Of a stretch of 64,000 nucleotides of DNA, positions 7,115-17,505 are shown one piece after another. This stretch comes from Gammaproteobacteria bacterium (lineage in GTDB: Bacteria > Pseudomonadota > Gammaproteobacteria > Pseudomonadales > Azotimanducaceae). Under the pieces are notes generated by a model. It searched no databases, was not told the origin of the DNA, and saw only the letters and a list, made by a program, of their open reading frames with translations. A program made the translations under genes and the position numbers. Position 1 is the stretch's first letter, and each line of letters opens with the position of its first letter. The stretch is taken from the NCBI GenBank assembly GCA_026709365.1, contig JAPOTD010000007.1, positions 79,777 to 143,776 on the forward strand, read 5' to 3'.

Positions 7115-7185
7115 AACTGTGCCAGCTCAGAAACACGTCGGACTTGACCCAACCATCAAGCGCGTCCGCGAAGCGGGCGCACATG

Positions 7186-7214
7186 TTGACAGGCCCCGAA
7201 CAACTGAATATGGT
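7186..7214 (+). promoter_or_regulatory. Sigma70-type promoter of the sterol cluster
   Basis: TTGACA at 7186-7191 is followed after exactly 17 bp by TATGGT at 7209-7214. This would start transcription near 7221 and leave a leader of about 75 nt before the squalene synthase ATG at 7296. It is a near-consensus arrangement in otherwise GC-rich DNA. The prediction is by eye only. Confidence 0.6.
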
Positions 7215-7295
7215 AAAGATTCTGGCGTAGTTCTGGATTCTATGGACCGATGCTTGGCGGCGTCGGAGGCGGAAATCAATCTGCGACGAGGCAGC

Positions 7296-8366
7296 ATGAA
7301 CGCAGCGACGACAGCGACGACAGGGGAAGGCCAGGCCGACCTCGCTTACCAGCGTGACATCCTGCCCAAGGTGTCACGAACCTTTGCCCTGACCATTCCC
7401 CAATTGCCCGATCCGCTCTCCGAAGCTATAGGCAACGCCTACCTGCTGTGCCGCATCGCTGACACCGTCGAAGACGAACCCGCGCTCTCGGCGCAGGAGA
7501 AGCAGGCCTTCCTGGAGCGCTTCACCGAGGTTGTGGAAGGCCGGGCGCCAGCGCCGGCCTTCGCTGGCGATCTCGGGCCGCTGCTATCGACCGCCACCAT
7601 TGATGCCGAGCGGGAATTGGTGACCAACACCCCCAAGGTCATTCGCGTCACGCACCGCTTGCGCCCGGTGCAGCGGGAGGCCTTGGAGCGTTGCGTGCGC
7701 ATCATGTCGCTGGGCATGGCGGAGTTTCAGCGCAATGCGACGCCTGACGGCCTCAACGACGTGCCGGCGCTCAACCGCTATTGCTACCACGTGGCTGGCG
7801 TGGTGGGCGAGACCATTACCAAGTTGCTGTGCGACTACTCGCCCCGCATCGGCGAGCGGCGGGAGGAACTGTTCAGCTTGTCCACTTCCTTCGGGCAGGG
7901 CCTGCAAATGGTCAACATCCTCAAGGACATGTGGGACGATCGCCGGCGCGGGGTTTGCTGGCTGCCTCGGGATGTCTTCCAAGCCGTGGGGTCGGATGTC
8001 TCAACCTTGGCGTCCAGGCGTTCCGATCCCCAGTTCGTTGCCGGCTTGCTGGGCCTTGTGGGCATGGCCCGGGACCATCTCCTGGCGGCGTTGCGGTTCA
8101 CGCTGCTGATTCCGGCGCGCGAAACGGGCATCCGCCGGTTCCTGCTGTGGGCCTTGGGCATGGCGGTGCTCACTTTGCGCCGCATTAACGCGCGACCCGA
8201 CTTCACCGACGGCAGCGAGGTGAAGATCTCCCGTCGGGAAGTGCGCTCCACCGTCTTGGTCACCAGCGCCCTGGCGCGTTCGGACCAAGCCCTGAAAGTG
8301 CTCTTTGGCACCTTGACGCGAGCGCTTCCCAGCGGAGCCGGCCGCCTTGCCGTTGGAGTTGGTTGA
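7296..8366 (+). CDS. Squalene synthase (farnesyl-diphosphate farnesyltransferase)
   Basis: The 356-residue protein belongs to the squalene/phytoene synthase family and would join two farnesyl-PP head to head to make squalene, the entry to the sterol pathway. The two aspartate-rich Mg-diphosphate motifs are DTVED (residues 56-60) and DMWDD (211-215) in MVNILKDMWDDRRRGVCWLP. The length, and the single gene in place of hpnCDE, fit a eukaryote-like one-enzyme squalene synthase. The ATG at 7296 is chosen because family homology begins just after it. It is first in the cluster behind a strong promoter, 110 bp ahead of sdmB. Phytoene synthase is the alternative, but the sterol genes next door argue for squalene. 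Confidence 0.9.
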   Translation: MNAATTATTGEGQADLAYQRDILPKVSRTFALTIPQLPDPLSEAIGNAYLLCRIADTVEDEPALSAQEKQAFLERFTEVVEGRAPAPAFAGDLGPLLSTATIDAERELVTNTPKVIRVTHRLRPVQREALERCVRIMSLGMAEFQRNATPDGLNDVPALNRYCYHVAGVVGETITKLLCDYSPRIGERREELFSLSTSFGQGLQMVNILKDMWDDRRRGVCWLPRDVFQAVGSDVSTLASRRSDPQFVAGLLGLVGMARDHLLAALRFTLLIPARETGIRRFLLWALGMAVLTLRRINARPDFTDGSEVKISRREVRSTVLVTSALARSDQALKVLFGTLTRALPSGAGRLAVGVG

Positions 8367-8475: not shown

Positions 8476-9645
8476 ATGTTGGATGATCCGGTGGCGCTGA
8501 AATCGAAAAAAGTCGAGGACTCCCCTCCAGCGTCCTCCGCCGCACCCGTCTTGGTGACCGGCTCGTCCGGACATGTGGGCGCCAACCTCGTGCGGCGGCT
8601 GCTTGACGATGGCGTGCGCGTGCGCGTGCTGCTGAGACGGGAAAGCCCGAGCGAATCCGTGGCGGGCCTGGATGTGGAGCGCGCCTACGCGGACATCCGG
8701 GACCTTGACGCCACCCGGCGGGCGCTCGAAGGCTGCCAAGGCGTTTACCACTGCGCGGCCAAGGTATCCACCATCGACGGCAACCGGGCCCACAAGCGGG
8801 AGTTGTTCGAGTGCAACGTGCTCGGCACCCGCAACGTCCTGCAGGCCGCCCGGGAGGCGCAGGCTGGCCGCGTGGTGGTCACCGGCTCCTTCAGCGCGGT
8901 TGGCTACCATCTGGACGATCCCTCGGCGCCCAGCGATGAGTCCATGCAGTTCTACCCCATGGACCGCACCATGCCCTACGAGCGCACCAAGGTGCTGACC
9001 GAGCACGAGTGCCTGCGCGCCGTTGCCGCAGGCCAGGACGTGGTGATCGCAACCTGCTGCGCGGTGGTTGGCGGCGCGGACTTCGGCCCCTCGCGATTGG
9101 GCAGAACCCTGTGCGACTACAGCCACGGCAAGCTGCACGCCTACGTGGACGGCGGATTTGCCTTCGTCGCGGCACGGGACATCGTCCAGGGCCATCTGCT
9201 GTGCATGGAAAAGGGCCGCACCGGCCAAAAGTACATCTTCGCCACCGAGTACAAGACCATCTCCGAAATCATCGACCTCTATGAGGAGGTGTCGGGCGTT
9301 CCCCGCCCCAACCGGCGGATGCCGGCGCCTCTCATGTACGTTTTCTCCGAAGTGGCGAGCTTTTACCTCAGCCGCTTCCACCCCAAGTTTCCGCAGCGCT
9401 TCACGCCCGGCGCCATACGGCTGCTGCAGCAGCGCCGTCACGCCGACACCGGCAAGGCGCAGCGGGAGCTTGGCTACCAACCCACCAGCATCCGGGCTGC
9501 CGTCCATGAAGCCTATGCGTTTCACTATCAGCGCAACGCCATTCGCAACCCGGCGGCCAAACAACCTAACTGGAACGGCGATGGGGCGGACTCCGCCCGC
9601 GCCCAAGAGGAGGTCGGCATGGCAACCGATGCCCAAAGCTCATGA
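8476..9645 (+). CDS. sdmB: SdmB-like 3beta-hydroxysteroid-4-carboxylate dehydrogenase (SDR family)
   Basis: This is a 389-residue extended short-chain dehydrogenase with an NAD(P)-binding TGSSGHVG loop (residues 28-35) and a catalytic YERTK (Tyr168, Lys172). In Methylococcus capsulatus, SdmB oxidises and decarboxylates the C-4 carboxyl sterol made by SdmA, replacing eukaryotic ERG26/ERG27. The assignment rests on family type plus direct coupling to a Rieske gene of the SdmA type and to sterol genes. The ATG start at 8476 follows a 110-bp gap; the stop overlaps sdmA by 4 bp. HpnA-like epimerases are the nearest alternative, but no hopanoid genes are present. Confidence 0.82.
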   Translation: MLDDPVALKSKKVEDSPPASSAAPVLVTGSSGHVGANLVRRLLDDGVRVRVLLRRESPSESVAGLDVERAYADIRDLDATRRALEGCQGVYHCAAKVSTIDGNRAHKRELFECNVLGTRNVLQAAREAQAGRVVVTGSFSAVGYHLDDPSAPSDESMQFYPMDRTMPYERTKVLTEHECLRAVAAGQDVVIATCCAVVGGADFGPSRLGRTLCDYSHGKLHAYVDGGFAFVAARDIVQGHLLCMEKGRTGQKYIFATEYKTISEIIDLYEEVSGVPRPNRRMPAPLMYVFSEVASFYLSRFHPKFPQRFTPGAIRLLQQRRHADTGKAQRELGYQPTSIRAAVHEAYAFHYQRNAIRNPAAKQPNWNGDGADSARAQEEVGMATDAQSS

Positions 9646-10739
9646 GTCTCGCACTGCAAACAGCGCCCGCCTTCGAGGACGCCACGCGGCTGCGCCAGCA
9701 GGCCCGCGCGGCCGGCATGGACCCGAACTACTGGTATGCGGTGGAGGAAACCCGCAACCTGGCACCGGGGTCCGTGGTGGAGGTGGTCTTCTGGAAGCGG
9801 TCCATCGCCCTTTTTCGGGATGAGGACGGCTCGTTCCACGCCGTGGAGAACCGTTGCGCCCATCGCCAGATCAAGCTCTCGCTCGGCGAGGTCCAAGGCT
9901 GTCGGCTGGTCTGCCCGTATCATGGCTGGCAGTACGACAAAACCGGGGAATGCGTCGAAATCCCACACGAGCGCTACGGGCGCAGCTTCCCGAAAATGGT
10001 CTTGAGAACCTATCCGGTTCAAGTTCGCCATGGCTTGGTATGGCTGTTTCCCGGCGACCCGGCGCTGGCCTCAACCCGCGAGATTCCCCACATCCCGGAG
10101 CTTGAGGGCCCCGGGCGCTGGGCCTGCGTCCCCTTGGTCTTCACCTGGTCGGCCCACCATTCGATGATCATCGACAACGTGAGCGACTTCTCCCACGCGC
10201 ACCTGCATCGCCGCTACCGGCCGTTCGATGACGCCACCCTGACCCACTGCGAGACCGTCGGCGACAACGTTCATGTGGCCTACGATGCGCAGGTCGGCCG
10301 GGGGCCCATTTCAAGGCACTTCGTCGAGCATGGCCAGATCGACACCAGCCACATGGACCTGTGCTTCGAGTACCCATACCAGTGGTCGAACACCGATGAC
10401 GCCATCAAGCACTGGCTGTTCGTGCTGCCGATCGACGAGCGCACCACCCGCGTGTTCTTTCTGTTCTACTTCAAGTCGCTGAAGATTCCGCTGTTGCCGG
10501 TGCGGATTCCCCGGGCCGCCATGACTGCGGTTCTCAAGCTCTCGAACCGCTGGATGATCGCGCCGCTGCTGGACCAGGACCGGTTCGCGGTCGAAGCCGA
10601 GCAGATCGGCTATGAAAAGCACTGGGATGCCACGCCCATCGAATTGAGCCCGGCGGTGCAGGCCTTTCAGACCGTCACCGTCCGCAAGTGGCGGGAACAC
10701 TTGGAGCGCGAGGCTGAAAACGGTCATGGCGGTGCTTGA
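9642..10739 (+). CDS. sdmA: SdmA-like Rieske sterol C-4 demethylase oxygenase
   Basis: This 365-residue Rieske non-heme iron oxygenase has the [2Fe-2S] ligands Cys72/His74 (NRCAHR) and Cys91/His94 (CPYHGW), and a mononuclear-iron region in NVSDFSHAHLHRR (Asp182, His185, His189). In the bacterial sterol route, SdmA oxidises the 4alpha/4beta methyl group to a carboxylate, which SdmB then removes. The gene overlaps sdmB by 4 bp and the sterol reductase by 14 bp, so the three are almost certainly co-translated. Its redox partner is not in the cluster; a small Rieske ferredoxin gene lies 47 kb away. Function is inferred from context and architecture. Confidence 0.82.
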   Translation: MSLALQTAPAFEDATRLRQQARAAGMDPNYWYAVEETRNLAPGSVVEVVFWKRSIALFRDEDGSFHAVENRCAHRQIKLSLGEVQGCRLVCPYHGWQYDKTGECVEIPHERYGRSFPKMVLRTYPVQVRHGLVWLFPGDPALASTREIPHIPELEGPGRWACVPLVFTWSAHHSMIIDNVSDFSHAHLHRRYRPFDDATLTHCETVGDNVHVAYDAQVGRGPISRHFVEHGQIDTSHMDLCFEYPYQWSNTDDAIKHWLFVLPIDERTTRVFFLFYFKSLKIPLLPVRIPRAAMTAVLKLSNRWMIAPLLDQDRFAVEAEQIGYEKHWDATPIELSPAVQAFQTVTVRKWREHLEREAENGHGGA

Positions 10740-11826
10740 GCAGCACGAGTTGCTGTCCGGGCTGTCCGGCGGCGCCCTCCTTGGGGCGGCAGCCATGTTT
10801 CTGGCCTTCATGGCCGCTCTGTTCGCGGGTTCCATGCTGCTGCCTGGACGACGGTTTGAGTTGACTGATGCCGATGGCGGGTCACGCACGTGCACGCTGA
10901 ACGGACTTGCGCTGTTCATCGCCACCATCGCCGTCGCCGGCGTTGCCCAAGTTGCCGGATGGTTCTCGCTGTCCGTGCTGCACGCCCACTTCATCCCCCT
11001 GTTTGTGGTGGCCAACGTCTTTGCGTTCGCGCTTTCCGGTTGGCTCTACTGGCAGGGCGCCGGAACCCCAGGGGCGCCAGCGGGATTCTGGCCCGGCTTC
11101 TTCTTTGGACGGATGCTGAACCCGCAGTGGCTCGGCATGGACTTGAAGTTCTTCAGCTACCGCCCCTCGCTGATCGCCTTGGCGCTGCTCAACCTGTCCT
11201 TCGCGGCTGTCCAATACGAAACCTACGGCGGGCTCACCTTGGCGATGACGCTGTATCAGGTTTTCACCTTTCTTTACGTGTTCAACTACTTCCAGTTCGA
11301 ATACGGCATGGTCCACACATGGGACATCGTGAGCGAGCGTTTCGGGTGGATGTTGGCGTGGGGCAACCTCGTGCTGGTGCCTTTCTTCTACTGCATCGCC
11401 GGCTGGTGGCTGGTCCACGCCCCGGATGCGCTCTCGCCCACCGCCGCCGGCCTGATTGCGTTGCTGTTCGTCTTCGGCTTCTGGCTGTTCCGCGGCGCCA
11501 ATGAGCAGAAGCACCGCTTCAAGCAGGATCCCAACGTCACCATCTGGGGCAGGCCCGCCGAGGCCCTCGGCGGGCGGCTGCTGGTTTCGGGGTTCTGGGG
11601 AATTGGGCGCCACCTCAACTACACCGGCGAGATTTGCGTTTACGTCGCCTTCCTGCTTACTGCCGGGTTTGAGTCCTGGTTGCCTTGGTTGCTGCTTGCA
11701 TGGCTGACCGGATTGCTCTGGCATCGCTCCAAGCGCGACGACCGGCGCTGCCAAGCCAAGTACGGCGATTTGTGGGAGCAGTACAAGCGGCGGGCCCGCT
11801 TCGCGATGCTGCCCTTCGTGTACTGA
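10726..11826 (+). CDS. ERG24/ERG4-family sterol reductase (probable C-14 reductase)
   Basis: This is a 366-residue multi-pass membrane protein of the ERG4/ERG24 family. Family landmarks are GRMLNPQWLGMDLKFFSYRP (about residues 124-143), GANEQKHRFKQDP, SGFWGIGRHLNYTGE and the C-terminal CQAKYGDLWEQY...MLPFVY, which form the NADPH- and sterol-binding end of the family. After CYP51 removes the 14alpha-methyl group, a delta14 double bond remains; this enzyme would reduce it. A delta7 (DHCR7-type) or C-24 reductase is possible from sequence alone, but position next to CYP51 favours C-14. It overlaps sdmA by 14 bp, and CYP51 starts 8 bp later. Confidence 0.85.
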   Translation: MAVLEQHELLSGLSGGALLGAAAMFLAFMAALFAGSMLLPGRRFELTDADGGSRTCTLNGLALFIATIAVAGVAQVAGWFSLSVLHAHFIPLFVVANVFAFALSGWLYWQGAGTPGAPAGFWPGFFFGRMLNPQWLGMDLKFFSYRPSLIALALLNLSFAAVQYETYGGLTLAMTLYQVFTFLYVFNYFQFEYGMVHTWDIVSERFGWMLAWGNLVLVPFFYCIAGWWLVHAPDALSPTAAGLIALLFVFGFWLFRGANEQKHRFKQDPNVTIWGRPAEALGGRLLVSGFWGIGRHLNYTGEICVYVAFLLTAGFESWLPWLLLAWLTGLLWHRSKRDDRRCQAKYGDLWEQYKRRARFAMLPFVY

Positions 11827-11834
11827 GGGCGGCG

Positions 11835-13208
11835 ATGGAAAACGGCAACCTCAAGGCGGCGAAGGCCGTTCCCGAACTGCCGGGCGGCTGGCCCCTGATC
11901 GGCCACTTGGGCGCATTCCAAAAGGATCCGGTTGCGATGCTGGAACGCGGCTCACGCCAGCTCGGCGACCTCTACCAGTTCCGGCTCGGTCCCCAGTCCT
12001 TTGCGCTGTTCGCCGGGCCGGAAGCCCACTCAGCTTATTTTGGGGCGCCGGACGACCAACTGGACGCCAAGGCGGTTTACAAGTTCACGGTGCCCATCTT
12101 CGGACGCGGGGTGGCCTACGACGTCGCCCCGGAAGTTATGGGCGAGCAACTTGGATTCCTCTTCCCGGCGCTGCGTGAGTCGGCGATGGAGCGGTTCGCC
12201 CGCATCATGTTCGAGGAGTCCTGCCTGTTCGCTGATTCCTTGGGCGAAGAGGGGGAACTGGATCTGCCGGTGGCGATGAACCAGCTCACGGTCAACATTG
12301 CCAGCCGCTGCTTCCTCGGCGAGGAGGTCCGCAATGAGGTGGATGCCGGGTTCGCTGCGGCCTATCACGATCTGCAGAACGGCATCAACACCATAGGGTT
12401 CTTTCTTCCCTACCTGCCCACCCCCGCCCATCGCAAGCGAGACCGGGCGCGGCGTCAGGTGATTGAAATCTTCAGCCGCATCATGCGGGAGCGGCGCCGC
12501 TCCGGAGCGCAGTCCGGGGACTTCATGCAAACGCTGATGGAGGCTCGCTACAAGGATGGCCGGGCATTGACGGATGATGAGGTCATTGGACTCCTGCTGA
12601 CGACACTGTTTGCCGGCCAACACACCAGCGCGGTCCTCGCCACTTGGACCGGCTTGGAGCTGTTCCGGGCCAACGACTACCTGCAACGGGTCCGGGACGA
12701 GGCGCAATCGATATACGGGGACGGGGACGCCATCAGTTTTGCGGGCCTAAAGCGGCAATCGCAATTGGAAAACGCCGTGCGTGAGTGCGAACGCCTGCAC
12801 CCGCCGTTGATCATCTTGGTGCGCAAGGTGCTCAAGCCCTTGCGTTACCGGGACGTTGAGGTGCCGGCGGGCACCTTGGCCATGGTCTCGCCGGCGGTCT
12901 CCCACCGGCTGCCCGAGGTGTTTGGCGACCCCGACCGATTCCACCCGGATCGCTTCGCCCCACCCGCCGCGGAAGGCAAGCAGCACCAATACGCCTTGGT
13001 CGGCTTCGGCGGCGGACGCCACCGCTGCATGGGCAAGAACTTCGCCATCATGCAGATCAAGGCCCTCTGGACGGTGCTGCTGGAACGCTTCGACTTTTCG
13101 CTGGACGGTGCGTTCCCGGCGCCCAACTACGGCAGTTGGGTGACCGGCCCCAAGGAGCCTTGCTTAGTCCGCTACCGCCGTCGCCCCCAAGTGAGTGCTT
13201 TGCCTTGA
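11835..13208 (+). CDS. cyp51: CYP51-like sterol 14alpha-demethylase (cytochrome P450)
   Basis: This 457-residue P450 has the CYP51 B-helix region motif FGRGVAYD (89-96), the I-helix AGQHTS (260-265), the K-helix ECER (317-320) and the heme loop FGGGRHRCMG with Cys398. The FxxGVxYD motif and the HT pair in the I-helix are CYP51 hallmarks. It would oxidatively remove the C-14 methyl group of lanosterol-type sterols, feeding the reductase encoded just upstream. No N-terminal membrane anchor is obvious, as in soluble bacterial CYP51 proteins. The ATG at 11835 follows GGGCGGCG; the stop overlaps the next gene's TTG. No fused ferredoxin, unlike the Methylococcus capsulatus enzyme. Confidence 0.9.
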   Translation: MENGNLKAAKAVPELPGGWPLIGHLGAFQKDPVAMLERGSRQLGDLYQFRLGPQSFALFAGPEAHSAYFGAPDDQLDAKAVYKFTVPIFGRGVAYDVAPEVMGEQLGFLFPALRESAMERFARIMFEESCLFADSLGEEGELDLPVAMNQLTVNIASRCFLGEEVRNEVDAGFAAAYHDLQNGINTIGFFLPYLPTPAHRKRDRARRQVIEIFSRIMRERRRSGAQSGDFMQTLMEARYKDGRALTDDEVIGLLLTTLFAGQHTSAVLATWTGLELFRANDYLQRVRDEAQSIYGDGDAISFAGLKRQSQLENAVRECERLHPPLIILVRKVLKPLRYRDVEVPAGTLAMVSPAVSHRLPEVFGDPDRFHPDRFAPPAAEGKQHQYALVGFGGGRHRCMGKNFAIMQIKALWTVLLERFDFSLDGAFPAPNYGSWVTGPKEPCLVRYRRRPQVSALP

Positions 13209-16200
13209 GCCGCGCCGCAGTGCCAGCCTACGATGTGGCCGTGGTCGGCGCTGGCCCGGTGGGCAGCGTTTGCGCCCTTGCCCACGCCCGCAAGGGCGCT
13301 CGGGTTGCGCTGCTTGAGGCCAATCCGAAGGCGGCGAGCCGATTGGCTGGGGAGTGGCTCCATCCGCCCGCCGTGCGAATCCTACGAAATTTGGGAATCA
13401 ACCTTGAAGCGGAGCAAGCCGGCAACAGGCGCGATGGCTTCGTGGTGTTTCCGGAAGACCGCTCGGAACCGATCATTCTGCGTTACCCCGACGAAACGCC
13501 CGCCATAGCCTACGAGCACGAATCGTTGATCGGGAAGCTGCGCGCCGCCATCGACAAGGAGCCCGGGGTGGACCTCTACACCAGTGCGCGGGTTCGCGAG
13601 GTGGAGGACCATCAGCTCACTTTCGCCACAAATGGGGCGTTGGAGTCGTTGTCGGCCGGGCGAATCGTCGGCGCCGACGGACGGGCCTCGATCGTGCGCC
13701 GGTCCTTGGGCTTGAACGGCAAGCGCACGACTTGCTCCCAAATGATCGGCCTCGTGGTTGAAGGCGAGACATTGCCCTTCGAAGGTTTCGGGCATGTGCT
13801 GCTCGGTGGCCCTGGCCCCATTTTGTTGTTTCGGGTCGGGGGCAACCGTGTCCGCATCATTGCCGACGTGCCCTTGGACCACTGGAATCCCAAGGATCGG
13901 GCCAGCATGCTTTCGGAGTCCTACGCCAGCCTCCTGCCGGAAACGCTCAGTGCCGGGTTCATCAAGGCCCTGCGCGCCAGGAATTTCCAAGCGGCCACCA
14001 ACGAGCTGCGTCCTCGGGTCACCTACGGGACGTCCAACCGGGTGCTGATTGGCGATGCGGCGGGGCACTACCATCCCCTGACGGCGGTCGGGATGACCTT
14101 GGGCATGGGCGATGCGCTGGCGCTCGCCGAAGAGAGCAGTTTTGAGGAGTTCTCGGCCAAGCGCTTGGTGGACATCCGCTCCCCCGAAACGCTGGCCATG
14201 GGTTTGTACGAGGTCTTCGCCGACTATCGGCTCGAATCGTCCACGCTGCGGCAAACGGTTTACCAGCTCTGGCGCACTGATCGCGGGATACGGGACCAAA
14301 CGATGAGGTTGCTCGCTTGCGAGGACAGATCCGTCGCCCGACTGGGCCTCACGTTCTACAAGATCGTGGCACGGGGTGCGATCGGGCCCATCTTGCGACC
14401 TCACGCAAACTTGACGCAGAGCCATGCCCGTCACATCGCCCGAGCCTTGATGGTGCGCGTCGGGCACTTTCTGCGCGGCATAAGCGCATTGCGCAAGCGG
14501 GGCGGCGTGGACGATGCGGTTACCGAGCAGGCGCGCAGCGAGTTGGCCTTGGCGTTTCCGACCTCCCTGCAATCCAATCCCCGCCACCGTCAGCCTGGCG
14601 ACGCAAGGCACGGCAAGGCAGTCGCAGCGGATGCCGCGCTGCAAGCCGCCGCCAATCGCTTGCTGGCTCTGCAGCAGGATGAGGGCGGTTGGGAAGGTGA
14701 AATGGTTTGGTGCCCCATGCTCACCGCGCAGTACGTGATGCTGCACCACATCATCGGCGAACCGCTGGCCGCGGATCGGCGACGGCTGATCCTGCGGCAG
14801 TTCGAGCAAACCCAGCTGGAGGGCGGGCTTTGGGGATTGCACGCCCACTCCGCACCCTACCTCTTCGTCACCGCGCTGGTTTACGTGGCCGCTAGGCTGC
14901 TTGGCGTTGCGGCGGATGATGAGCTTGTCAAGCCAGCCAAGCGCTTTCTGCAAACTGAGCAGGTGGCGTCCATACCCAGTTGGGGCAAGTTCTGGCTGGC
15001 GCTCCTCAATCTTTGGGACTGGCAGGGGGTGAATCCCCTGCCACCGGAGCTGTGGCGCTTGCCGCGCTGGCTGCCCTTGCATCCCTCCAAGTGGTACTGC
15101 CACTCTCGGCTCATATACGCGGCGATGGCGGCCGTCTATTCGAAGCGCTTCCAGATGCCGGTGACGCCCGTAATCGATGCGTTGCGGGAGGAGCTGTTTC
15201 CTGAAGGGTTCGCCAACGTCAATTTCGCCGCCAGCCGCAACCGCCTGCGCGACGGCGACCTCTACGCCCGGCCCAGCCCTTGGCTGCGGGCCGGGTACGC
15301 GGCCGCCCGCGCCTTTGAGGGACTTCACCTCAAACGCTTTCGCAGGCAGTGCGTTGATGGCCTGATGCGGCAGATCCATTGGGAAATGCGCAGTTCCAAC
15401 CATGCGAGCATCTCCCCGGTCAGCGGTTTCCTCAACGTCATTGCCGTTTGGCTGCATGATCCCCAGGATGCCGATTGCCGGGCCGCGATCGCTCAGCTGG
15501 AAGGCTGGATCTGGGAGGATGAAGCCCAGGGCACCCGGATCACGGGTGCCAGAAGCGCTTCCTGGGACACCGGCTTCGCCTTGCAGGCGTTGGCGACAGC
15601 GCCTCAGTTGGCCGGGGTGCGGGCAGCGCTCCAAAGAGGCGCTGCCGCTCTTGGCCGTCAGCAGATCGCCGAAAGCTTCGACGGATTTCGCGAGGCCTAT
15701 CGAGCCGATCCCAAGGGCGGCTGGTGTTTCCCCGGCGCTTGGCATGGGTGGCCGGTGTCGGACTGCACGGCCGAAGCCGTGTTGGGGATCGTCGCTGCCG
15801 GTTCGGAGGCGTTGGACGCAACGGCGCTGCGCGAAGCGGTTCAATTCATGCTGCGCAGGCAAAACCGGGATGGCGGCTTCGGCAGCTATGAGGCGCGGCG
15901 CTCCCGAGTGGGCCTCGAATGGATCAATCCCGCCGAGATGTTTGGCGATTCAATGACGGAGCAGTCCTATGTCGAATGCACCGCCTCCTGCTTGGCCGCC
16001 TTGGCAGCCTGCCGTCAAAATGTTCCCGAGACCCTGGATCAATCCGCCGTCAACGCCATGTCGCGGGCCGGGGCTTGGATGCGCCGCACCCAAGCCAGCG
16101 ACGGCTCCTGGCGCGGCGTCTGGGGCGTGCAGTTCATTTACGGCACCTTCTTCGGCATCCGCGGGCTCTTGGCCGCAGGTGCCCTTCGCGGCGATCCGGC

Positions 16201-16627
16201 CTTGCGCTTGGCCTGCCAGTGGCTGGTGGAGCGCCAGCGGGACGACGGGGGCTGGGGGGAGCACCACAGCGGCTGCCTGACCGGACGCTACGTCGCCCAC
16301 GAGGAGAGCCAAGTCATCCAAACGGCTTGGGCGCTGATCGCGCTGCTGGAGGCCGGCGACTCCAACTGGATGGCGATTTCACGCGGCGCGCAGTACTTGG
16401 TCGAGGCGCAGAACGCGGATGGATCCTGGCCGCGGCAGGACATGGCGGGCATTTTCTTCCGCACCGCGCTGTTGGATTACGTCCTTTATCGTCAGTACTT
16501 CCCGCTGCATGCGCTGGGGCTCTATGAGCGGCGGCGCTTGGCCCGGGAGCAGGCCGTGATGCCCGTCGATCCCGCTGGCGCGGAGCCGTTGGGCAACGGG
16601 CAGGCGAGCTTGGCCCTGACGCCCTGA
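13205..16627 (+). CDS. Squalene monooxygenase - oxidosqualene cyclase fusion
   Basis: A single uninterrupted frame of about 1140 residues carries two consecutive sterol enzymes. Residues 1-455 are an FAD monooxygenase of the squalene epoxidase type: GAGPVG dinucleotide motif (15-20), GADGR (156-160) and GDAAGHYHPLTAVGMTLG (283-300). After a linker around residues 455-475 comes an oxidosqualene cyclase of about 660 residues, with repeated QW motifs (QQDEGGW, QNRDGGFG, QASDGSW, QRDDGGW, QNADGSW) and the OSC catalytic motif SDCTAE with Asp853, not the DxDD of squalene-hopene cyclases. The protein would convert squalene through 2,3-oxidosqualene to a protosterol. The TTG at 13205 overlaps the CYP51 stop; GTG at 13220 is an alternative. 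It is last in the cluster. Confidence 0.93.
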   Translation: MSRAAVPAYDVAVVGAGPVGSVCALAHARKGARVALLEANPKAASRLAGEWLHPPAVRILRNLGINLEAEQAGNRRDGFVVFPEDRSEPIILRYPDETPAIAYEHESLIGKLRAAIDKEPGVDLYTSARVREVEDHQLTFATNGALESLSAGRIVGADGRASIVRRSLGLNGKRTTCSQMIGLVVEGETLPFEGFGHVLLGGPGPILLFRVGGNRVRIIADVPLDHWNPKDRASMLSESYASLLPETLSAGFIKALRARNFQAATNELRPRVTYGTSNRVLIGDAAGHYHPLTAVGMTLGMGDALALAEESSFEEFSAKRLVDIRSPETLAMGLYEVFADYRLESSTLRQTVYQLWRTDRGIRDQTMRLLACEDRSVARLGLTFYKIVARGAIGPILRPHANLTQSHARHIARALMVRVGHFLRGISALRKRGGVDDAVTEQARSELALAFPTSLQSNPRHRQPGDARHGKAVAADAALQAAANRLLALQQDEGGWEGEMVWCPMLTAQYVMLHHIIGEPLAADRRRLILRQFEQTQLEGGLWGLHAHSAPYLFVTALVYVAARLLGVAADDELVKPAKRFLQTEQVASIPSWGKFWLALLNLWDWQGVNPLPPELWRLPRWLPLHPSKWYCHSRLIYAAMAAVYSKRFQMPVTPVIDALREELFPEGFANVNFAASRNRLRDGDLYARPSPWLRAGYAAARAFEGLHLKRFRRQCVDGLMRQIHWEMRSSNHASISPVSGFLNVIAVWLHDPQDADCRAAIAQLEGWIWEDEAQGTRITGARSASWDTGFALQALATAPQLAGVRAALQRGAAALGRQQIAESFDGFREAYRADPKGGWCFPGAWHGWPVSDCTAEAVLGIVAAGSEALDATALREAVQFMLRRQNRDGGFGSYEARRSRVGLEWINPAEMFGDSMTEQSYVECTASCLAALAACRQNVPETLDQSAVNAMSRAGAWMRRTQASDGSWRGVWGVQFIYGTFFGIRGLLAAGALRGDPALRLACQWLVERQRDDGGWGEHHSGCLTGRYVAHEESQVIQTAWALIALLEAGDSNWMAISRGAQYLVEAQNADGSWPRQDMAGIFFRTALLDYVLYRQYFPLHALGLYERRRLAREQAVMPVDPAGAEPLGNGQASLALTP

Positions 16628-16827: not shown

Positions 16828-17505
16828 TCAGACCGACAGGACGCGGTAGTCGCCGTCCAAAATCAAGCGGATTGAGACGTAAAGCCCCAACAGGGGAAAC
16901 AAAATCCATGGGGAGTTGACCGCGAGGATGGCGATGGCCAATTCCTTGCGGCCCAGGGAAAGGTGCCGCTTGGCGATGAAGAAGCTCGCCATGTACACGG
17001 AAGTCATGTAAGTCCACTGCCAGAAGATCATCAAACCGATCATGCCCGCCACCACAGCGGGCAGGAACTCCACGGTGTATGCCGCATAGAGGACGGCGGT
17101 GGGGATGAGGGTTGCAAAGCCGTTGGCGGTGTCCACGTTGAAGCCATAGGTCCGGCGGTCGGCAAAGGAGGCGTCGTGGAGGGAGTAGGTTGCCCAGACA
17201 TCGGCCCAAAGCGTTGGTGAGACCATTTGCCTGAGCGAAATTTTGGTGCCTAGGAACTCGAAGGCGGGAATCCGGCCCGTCTCCTTGCGTCGCTTTCGCC
17301 AGTGCTCGAAACGCCGTTCAATGTAGTCCCGGCGCAGGAACAAGCAGGCCTCCCAATAGCAGATCAGGAGATTGATCGACAAAAACAGGCTTAAGGCTGC
17401 GTAAAGCCCATCCACGCTCCCATGGCTTTGCCAGCGCACGCCGAGCCCCGCCGCAAACATCAATGCGATGGCTAAGACGAAGACCCATAGGACGCGCACC
17501 CTCAT
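16828..17505 (-). CDS. Five-helix membrane protein, possible EXPERA/EBP-like sterol isomerase
   Basis: This 225-residue protein has about five hydrophobic segments (roughly 5-22, 33-57, 125-145, 147-172, 189-213). The arrangement W-x2-Y-x3-D in WATYSLHDASF, and NSPWILFP (Asn197, Trp200) in the last helix, resemble human EBP, whose last helix has Asn193 and Trp196 in the sterol pocket. The acidic and histidine residues that EBP uses in its first helices are not clearly conserved, although Glu occurs in CYWEACLF. The gene is convergent with the sterol cluster, 200 bp away. A delta8-delta7 isomerase would fit a gap in the pathway, but the homology is distant and unconfirmed. Confidence 0.35.
   Translation of the reverse strand: MRVRVLWVFVLAIALMFAAGLGVRWQSHGSVDGLYAALSLFLSINLLICYWEACLFLRRDYIERRFEHWRKRRKETGRIPAFEFLGTKISLRQMVSPTLWADVWATYSLHDASFADRRTYGFNVDTANGFATLIPTAVLYAAYTVEFLPAVVAGMIGLMIFWQWTYMTSVYMASFFIAKRHLSLGRKELAIAILAVNSPWILFPLLGLYVSIRLILDGDYRVLSV

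Follow-up and report, generated by a model that had tools for sequence, protein, structure and literature searches.

Within the 64,000-nucleotide stretch of gammaproteobacterial DNA analysed here (the window; contig JAPOTD010000007.1), a sequence-only reading had proposed that a squalene epoxidase and an oxidosqualene cyclase are fused in one polypeptide. The questions raised by this locus are whether the two enzymes are made as a single protein, what that protein does, and how it relates to relatives in which the two are encoded separately. The explanation that best accounts for the observations as a whole, with a probability of roughly 0.88, is that the gene encodes a bifunctional enzyme of the MsbE type, is the last gene of a sterol cluster and has likely been split in one lineage. 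The features concerned are as follows.

7119..8366, plus strand: squalene synthase family protein (PF00494, 183 bits; TIGR01559, 105 bits, below the cut-off of 287)
8476..9645, plus strand: NAD-dependent dehydrogenase, SdmB type, msbA equivalent (NF052578, 312 bits, below the cut-off of 600)
9642..10739, plus strand: Rieske oxygenase, SdmA type, msbB equivalent (PF00355; NF052579, 412 bits, below the cut-off of 600)
10726..11826, plus strand: ERG4/ERG24-type sterol reductase, msbC equivalent (PF01222, 236 bits)
11685..13208, plus strand: CYP51 sterol 14-demethylase frame, msbD equivalent (PF00067; likely start at an ATG near 11835)
13205..16627, plus strand: fused squalene epoxidase and oxidosqualene cyclase (1,140 codons; alternative start GTG at 13220)
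13223..14503, plus strand: squalene epoxidase domain (residues 7-433, C-terminal helices included)
14504..14620, plus strand: linker (residues 434-472, 39 residues; the split point in one lineage)
14621..16549, plus strand: oxidosqualene cyclase domain (residues 473-1115; V851-S-D853-C-T-A-E)
16828..17505, minus strand: EBP-fold membrane protein, candidate sterol delta8-delta7 isomerase (predicted fold like human EBP)

Domains of the fused gene

The frame runs without a stop codon from a TTG at 13136 to the stop at 16627. The TTG start at 13205 overlaps the CYP51 stop, and a start at GTG 13220 gives a fusion of 1,135 residues, the same length as the homologue P0001. In Pfam, FAD_binding_3 (PF01494) was matched at residues 9-308 (85 bits, cut-off 22) and SE (PF08491) at residues 155-388 (80 bits, cut-off 20.1), while the cyclase part contained SQHop_cyclase_N (PF13249) at residues 480-773 (173 bits, cut-off 26.2) and SQHop_cyclase_C (PF13243) at residues 784-1108 (189 bits, cut-off 26.1). 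Positions 13205-16627 are one frame with a complete epoxidase and a complete cyclase domain, and the earlier claim of a single frame of about 1,140 residues holding both was thereby borne out. Since both domains are complete, a chance open frame was rejected.

The motifs named in that reading (GAGPVG, GADGR, and SDCTAE with Asp853) were found as written. The epoxidase half matched human squalene monooxygenase in sequence (E 2.9e-22), and its domain shares the human SQLE fold, down to the C-terminal helices, which in the human enzyme bind the membrane. Across 60 aligned fusions, G20 of the GAGPVG motif at residues 15-20 was invariant and G15 and G17 nearly so; no variation was found in G156-A-D-G159 or G283-D-A285, or at D853 and its cysteine partners C854 and C925. 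The cyclase half matched human lanosterol synthase (E 7e-124), the SDCTAE motif, which holds the catalytic aspartate, aligns with that of the human enzyme. The valine that precedes this motif (Val 851 in the fusion) is present in the human protein too, and it bears on whether lanosterol or cycloartenol would be the product.

The second half was assigned as an oxidosqualene cyclase because it passes TIGR01787 in NCBIfam (506.6 bits, cut-off 322.7) and carries both Pfam cyclase halves, the SDCTAE motif and the matching fold. The hopene cyclase model TIGR01507 scored 272 bits on the fusion. The best NCBIfam model was TIGR03463 (2,3-oxidosqualene cyclase), yet its 716.5 bits lie below the cut-off of 851; this model may be narrow, as its cut-off was passed in one of the 369 genomes of a class survey.

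A protein search gave 1,544 homologues, and the best 120 were all fusions (1,111-1,186 residues). A genome scan found 162 relatives, of which the best 80 loci were retained; 79 of these 80, from eight named phyla, hold epoxidase and cyclase in a single frame. The sole broken frame (L060) is interrupted at about 11950 in the cyclase domain, which may reflect an assembly error or a pseudogene. P0001 is probably from a different assembly than the window, because its 3.93-Mb contig exceeds the whole window assembly (3.70 Mb). With full-length fused relatives in other genomes, an assembly join was judged unlikely.

Gene cluster, known relatives and distribution

The genes upstream of the fusion belong to families of sterol synthesis, and the best PDB match of the CYP51 frame is the CYP51 structure 6mcw (E 3.4e-110). 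Among the 65 loci that extend 5 kb or more upstream, 54 have the order SdmB, SdmA, ERG24, CYP51 and fusion; four show some of these upstream genes and seven show none. Fusions without any of the four usual upstream genes occur at L016, L026, L034, L049, L051, L052 and L057, and the fusion can occur apart from the operon. Squalene synthase matches were present in nine of the 80 related loci, seven of them on the opposite strand, and L080 matches the window in having the gene 5' and on the same strand.

The likeness of the gene at 16828-17505 to EBP was shown by fold comparison only: a Pfam search to E 10 gave ASTER alone (E 0.11), not an EBP family, and its profile retrieved zero EBP chains from the PDB to E 10. 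On the strength of the predicted fold, this neighbour may provide the sterol isomerase step. The sterol methyltransferase family PF08498 had no matches in the window's genome, but it also had none in the control genomes, so this result is uninformative.

The sequence-only reading knew of no described example of such a fusion, and here it was mistaken. In the accessible part of a 2020 report (PMC7074536), MsbE is described from the msb cluster of a gamma-proteobacterial symbiont of the sponge Melophlus, and the accessible part of a 2023 paper refers to 'fused SMO/OSC homologs' in a single sentence of its methods (PMC10070321); uniqueness of the fusion was rejected on these grounds. As far as PMC7074536 describes it, MsbE resembles the window protein in joining an N-terminal squalene epoxidase and a C-terminal sterol cyclase in one protein and in having the lanosterol-type valine, and the two clusters share the order SDR, Rieske, reductase, CYP51 and fusion. 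The window fusion is of the MsbE type, a likeness to MsbE (MT026193.1) that rests on the domain layout and gene order in that part of PMC7074536. By the same partial account, the loci differ at both ends: in the window the cluster opens at its 5' end with squalene synthase, which in Melophlus is on a separate scaffold, and the fusion is followed by the opposite-strand EBP-fold gene in the window and by the methyltransferase msbF in Melophlus (PMC7074536).

Related clusters were reported in 2022 from Ircinia symbionts, where, in the portion of the paper available, ERG24-CYP51-LSS clusters are counted in 115 of 537 MAGs from 10 phyla and horizontal transfer is argued for these steroid clusters (PMC9531527). 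They share with the window the ERG24, CYP51 and LSS core and an occurrence in many phyla, and the LSS alignment given in that portion has 3,765 positions, which matches the length of the fusion (PMC9531527). In the same portion the last gene is annotated as lanosterol synthase only, and the words fused and fusion are absent from the main text (PMC9531527). The available portion of PMC10070321 also places four oxidosqualene cyclases from demosponge metagenomes within the bacterial Group 1 clade. A word search for fused or fusion found neither in the accessible portions of PMC4919349 (2016) and PMC10202945 (2023).

The same two enzyme families also lie side by side in genome G193 (locus L134), which we take to be Methylococcus-like. 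There they are two genes, with the cyclase ahead of the epoxidase and so arranged opposite to the domains of the fusion; identity is 46% and 31%.

In the window's own genome (95.7% complete), the fusion holds the one oxidosqualene- or hopene-type cyclase found. In a survey of 58 related genomes, the fusion was present in four of nine genomes of the same genus (own included), in one of 28 from other genera of the family and in none of 21 from other families of the order. Of 369 genomes drawn from the class, six had a cyclase match of at least 641 bits, and three of these were fused. The 80 loci come from Pseudomonadota, Nitrospirota, Acidobacteriota, Actinomycetota, Chloroflexota, Gemmatimonadota, Binatota and Bacteroidota, the phylum names being those in the MAG titles, and three listed loci are without one. 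This patchy distribution, together with the mixing of phyla in the trees, fits horizontal transfer of the fusion. Loci L069, L071 and L076 were joined with L009 and L039 in the epoxidase tree (100) and not in the cyclase tree, a possible sign that the two parts of the gene have recombined.

The locus of another genome of the genus (G007) shares 6,357 identical bases with a record of Candidatus Azophilus lithoversatilis, presumably a sponge symbiont. From this identity we infer that the window, too, comes from a sponge symbiont.

The linker and possible channelling

As judged from its families, the fusion is a predicted bifunctional enzyme for the first two sterol-forming steps. The cluster runs in the order squalene synthase, SdmB, SdmA, ERG24, CYP51 and fusion, the last being its final gene on the same strand; the order is seen in the sequence, and the functions are predicted from the families. 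The squalene synthase family protein would make squalene, the epoxidase domain would oxidise it to 2,3-oxidosqualene, and the cyclase domain would convert this to a lanosterol-type sterol. The product would then pass through CYP51, ERG24, SdmA and SdmB for 14-demethylation, 14-reduction and C-4 demethylation.

The linker directly follows the epoxidase C-terminal helices, and both active sites are therefore likely to face the same patch of membrane, in which case the epoxide would have a short way to travel along the membrane before reaching the cyclase. The sequence-only reading proposed that a fusion would channel 2,3-oxidosqualene between the active sites and force equal amounts of the two enzymes, both of which are reasonable expectations. 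When 14 chosen fusion pairs were pooled, the linker differed by 0.160, 0.131 and 0.278 at first, second and third codon positions, the third-position excess expected of a translated linker.

A competing explanation, to which we give slightly less than an even chance, is that the fusion serves only co-expression in equal amounts, the domains working independently, without channelling, and oxidosqualene moving freely through the membrane. It agrees with the linker being the fastest-changing part of the fusion (amino-acid difference in the 14 chosen pairs of 0.246, against 0.110 and 0.090 in the domains), with the disordered stretch in the predicted structure at residues 459-468 (pLDDT below 50), and with the existence of a lineage in which the genes are split. 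Linker length, however, is nearly constant, with 88-93 residues between fixed points around it in 21 of 22 fusions and 85 in the remaining one (L105), and the pTM of 0.87 for the 1,140-residue model suggests a definite domain arrangement. In that model, pLDDT also falls below 50 in cyclase loops at 845-849, 896-901, 914-918 and 1082-1090, some of which adjoin SDCTAE. The existence of the split lineage suggests that fusion is not strictly required and confers an advantage rather than meeting a need.

The split lineage

Searches with the cyclase part and the epoxidase part, considering the best 120 matches listed for each, both returned separate genes, and at least 25 epoxidase/cyclase pairs could be matched by equal contig sizes between the two sets. 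The quick trees of both domains grouped 20 of the 25 pairs into a single clade nested within the fusions (99 and 100). The cyclases of this clade are 614-664 residues long (644-648 in 16 of 20) and the epoxidases 390-478. The remaining five pairs branch at other points among the fusions and could be fragments or additional splits. More careful trees were built from hand-chosen rows comprising 22 main-clade fusions (the window included), L105 and 13 of the 25 pairs, all trees using LG+G4. The split clade adjoins the Chloroflexota fusions in the careful cyclase tree (99/94) and in the joint tree (98/95); its position is undecided in the careful epoxidase tree, and the quick trees place it beside them weakly (46 and 82).

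A close cyclase, scoring at least 885 bits against P0155, is present in 18 of the 393 genomes searched in the class of G426 (titled Dehalococcoidia). A frame of at least 1,064 residues was present in 14 of these 18, both domains being checked in three, and adjacent separate epoxidase and cyclase genes were found in G1041 and G1010. In G956 (L173, 9168-11081) an epoxidase is absent within the 16 kb fetched around the close cyclase. G955, with its cyclase at a contig edge, was not counted as split, nor was G230, where the epoxidase frame runs off contig C169 without a stop and the cyclase is on another contig. Among 296 genomes of the Acidimicrobiia (the class of G425), only the fused G425 scored above 190 bits against P0155.

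The DNA of the junction was read in two genomes outside the 25 pairs (contigs of 133041 and 96748 bases, the lengths also given for P0144 and P0302). At L171 (9370-12727) the epoxidase frame ends in linker sequence and a TAG that lies inside TAGGAG, and the cyclase begins in the same frame at an ATG nine bases further on. L172 (8731-12341) has the same linker-sequence end and TAG in TAGGAG; here the ATG follows at eleven bases, and the frame of the cyclase is a different one. Both loci are broken at one more point, and decay or sequencing error may have played a part: the L171 epoxidase is in two frames (break near 10203) with the cyclase frame intact, and the L172 cyclase shifts frame near 12200 with the epoxidase frame intact.

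Natural fission is the best reading of this lineage. It is probable that the fusion spread with its operon through at least eight sponge-symbiont phyla and was then cut in a lineage of the class Dehalococcoidia by a linker TAG that doubles as a ribosome-binding site (TAGGAG...ATG). The reverse course, in which the split lineage keeps an ancestral two-gene state and fusions arose repeatedly as the stop codon was lost, is unlikely. It could appeal to the cyclase tree alone, in which the main-clade fusions as a single clade were not rejected (AU p 0.26), and to the fusion L105, which the cyclase and joint trees place apart from the main clade and next to single cyclases (the careful epoxidase tree puts L105 and L106 within the main fusions, 84/49). 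Against it, a single clade of the 22 main-clade fusions, a group named for the AU test after the first tree had been seen, was rejected by the joint alignment (p 0.002) and by the epoxidase alone (p 0.013). Moreover, the four epoxidase tails examined from the split clade end in the linker motif of the fusion, and the one unpaired single epoxidase tail examined (P0345) is without it.

That the fused polypeptide is cut, or that its cyclase is also translated from an internal start, giving two separate working enzymes, is very improbable: in-frame GTG 435 and TTG 447, 449 and 486 lie within or near the linker and the split-lineage cyclase has its own TAGGAG and ATG, but an in-frame ATG is absent between residue 416 in the epoxidase helices and residue 500 in the cyclase, neither AGGAG nor GGAGG occurs within 14392-14700, and the single frame is kept in nearly all retained loci.

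Sterols are rare in bacteria, and where sponges obtain theirs matters for the fossil record of steranes. An operon that is widespread, apparently through horizontal transfer, and has a fused first committed enzyme makes sterol synthesis by symbionts easy to recognise. The fusion is of an already known kind; its natural re-splitting, possibly new, is the part worth following. The fusion may be a reversible unit, likely split again in one lineage; if so, natural fused and re-split versions of one enzyme pair would allow a direct test of channelling.
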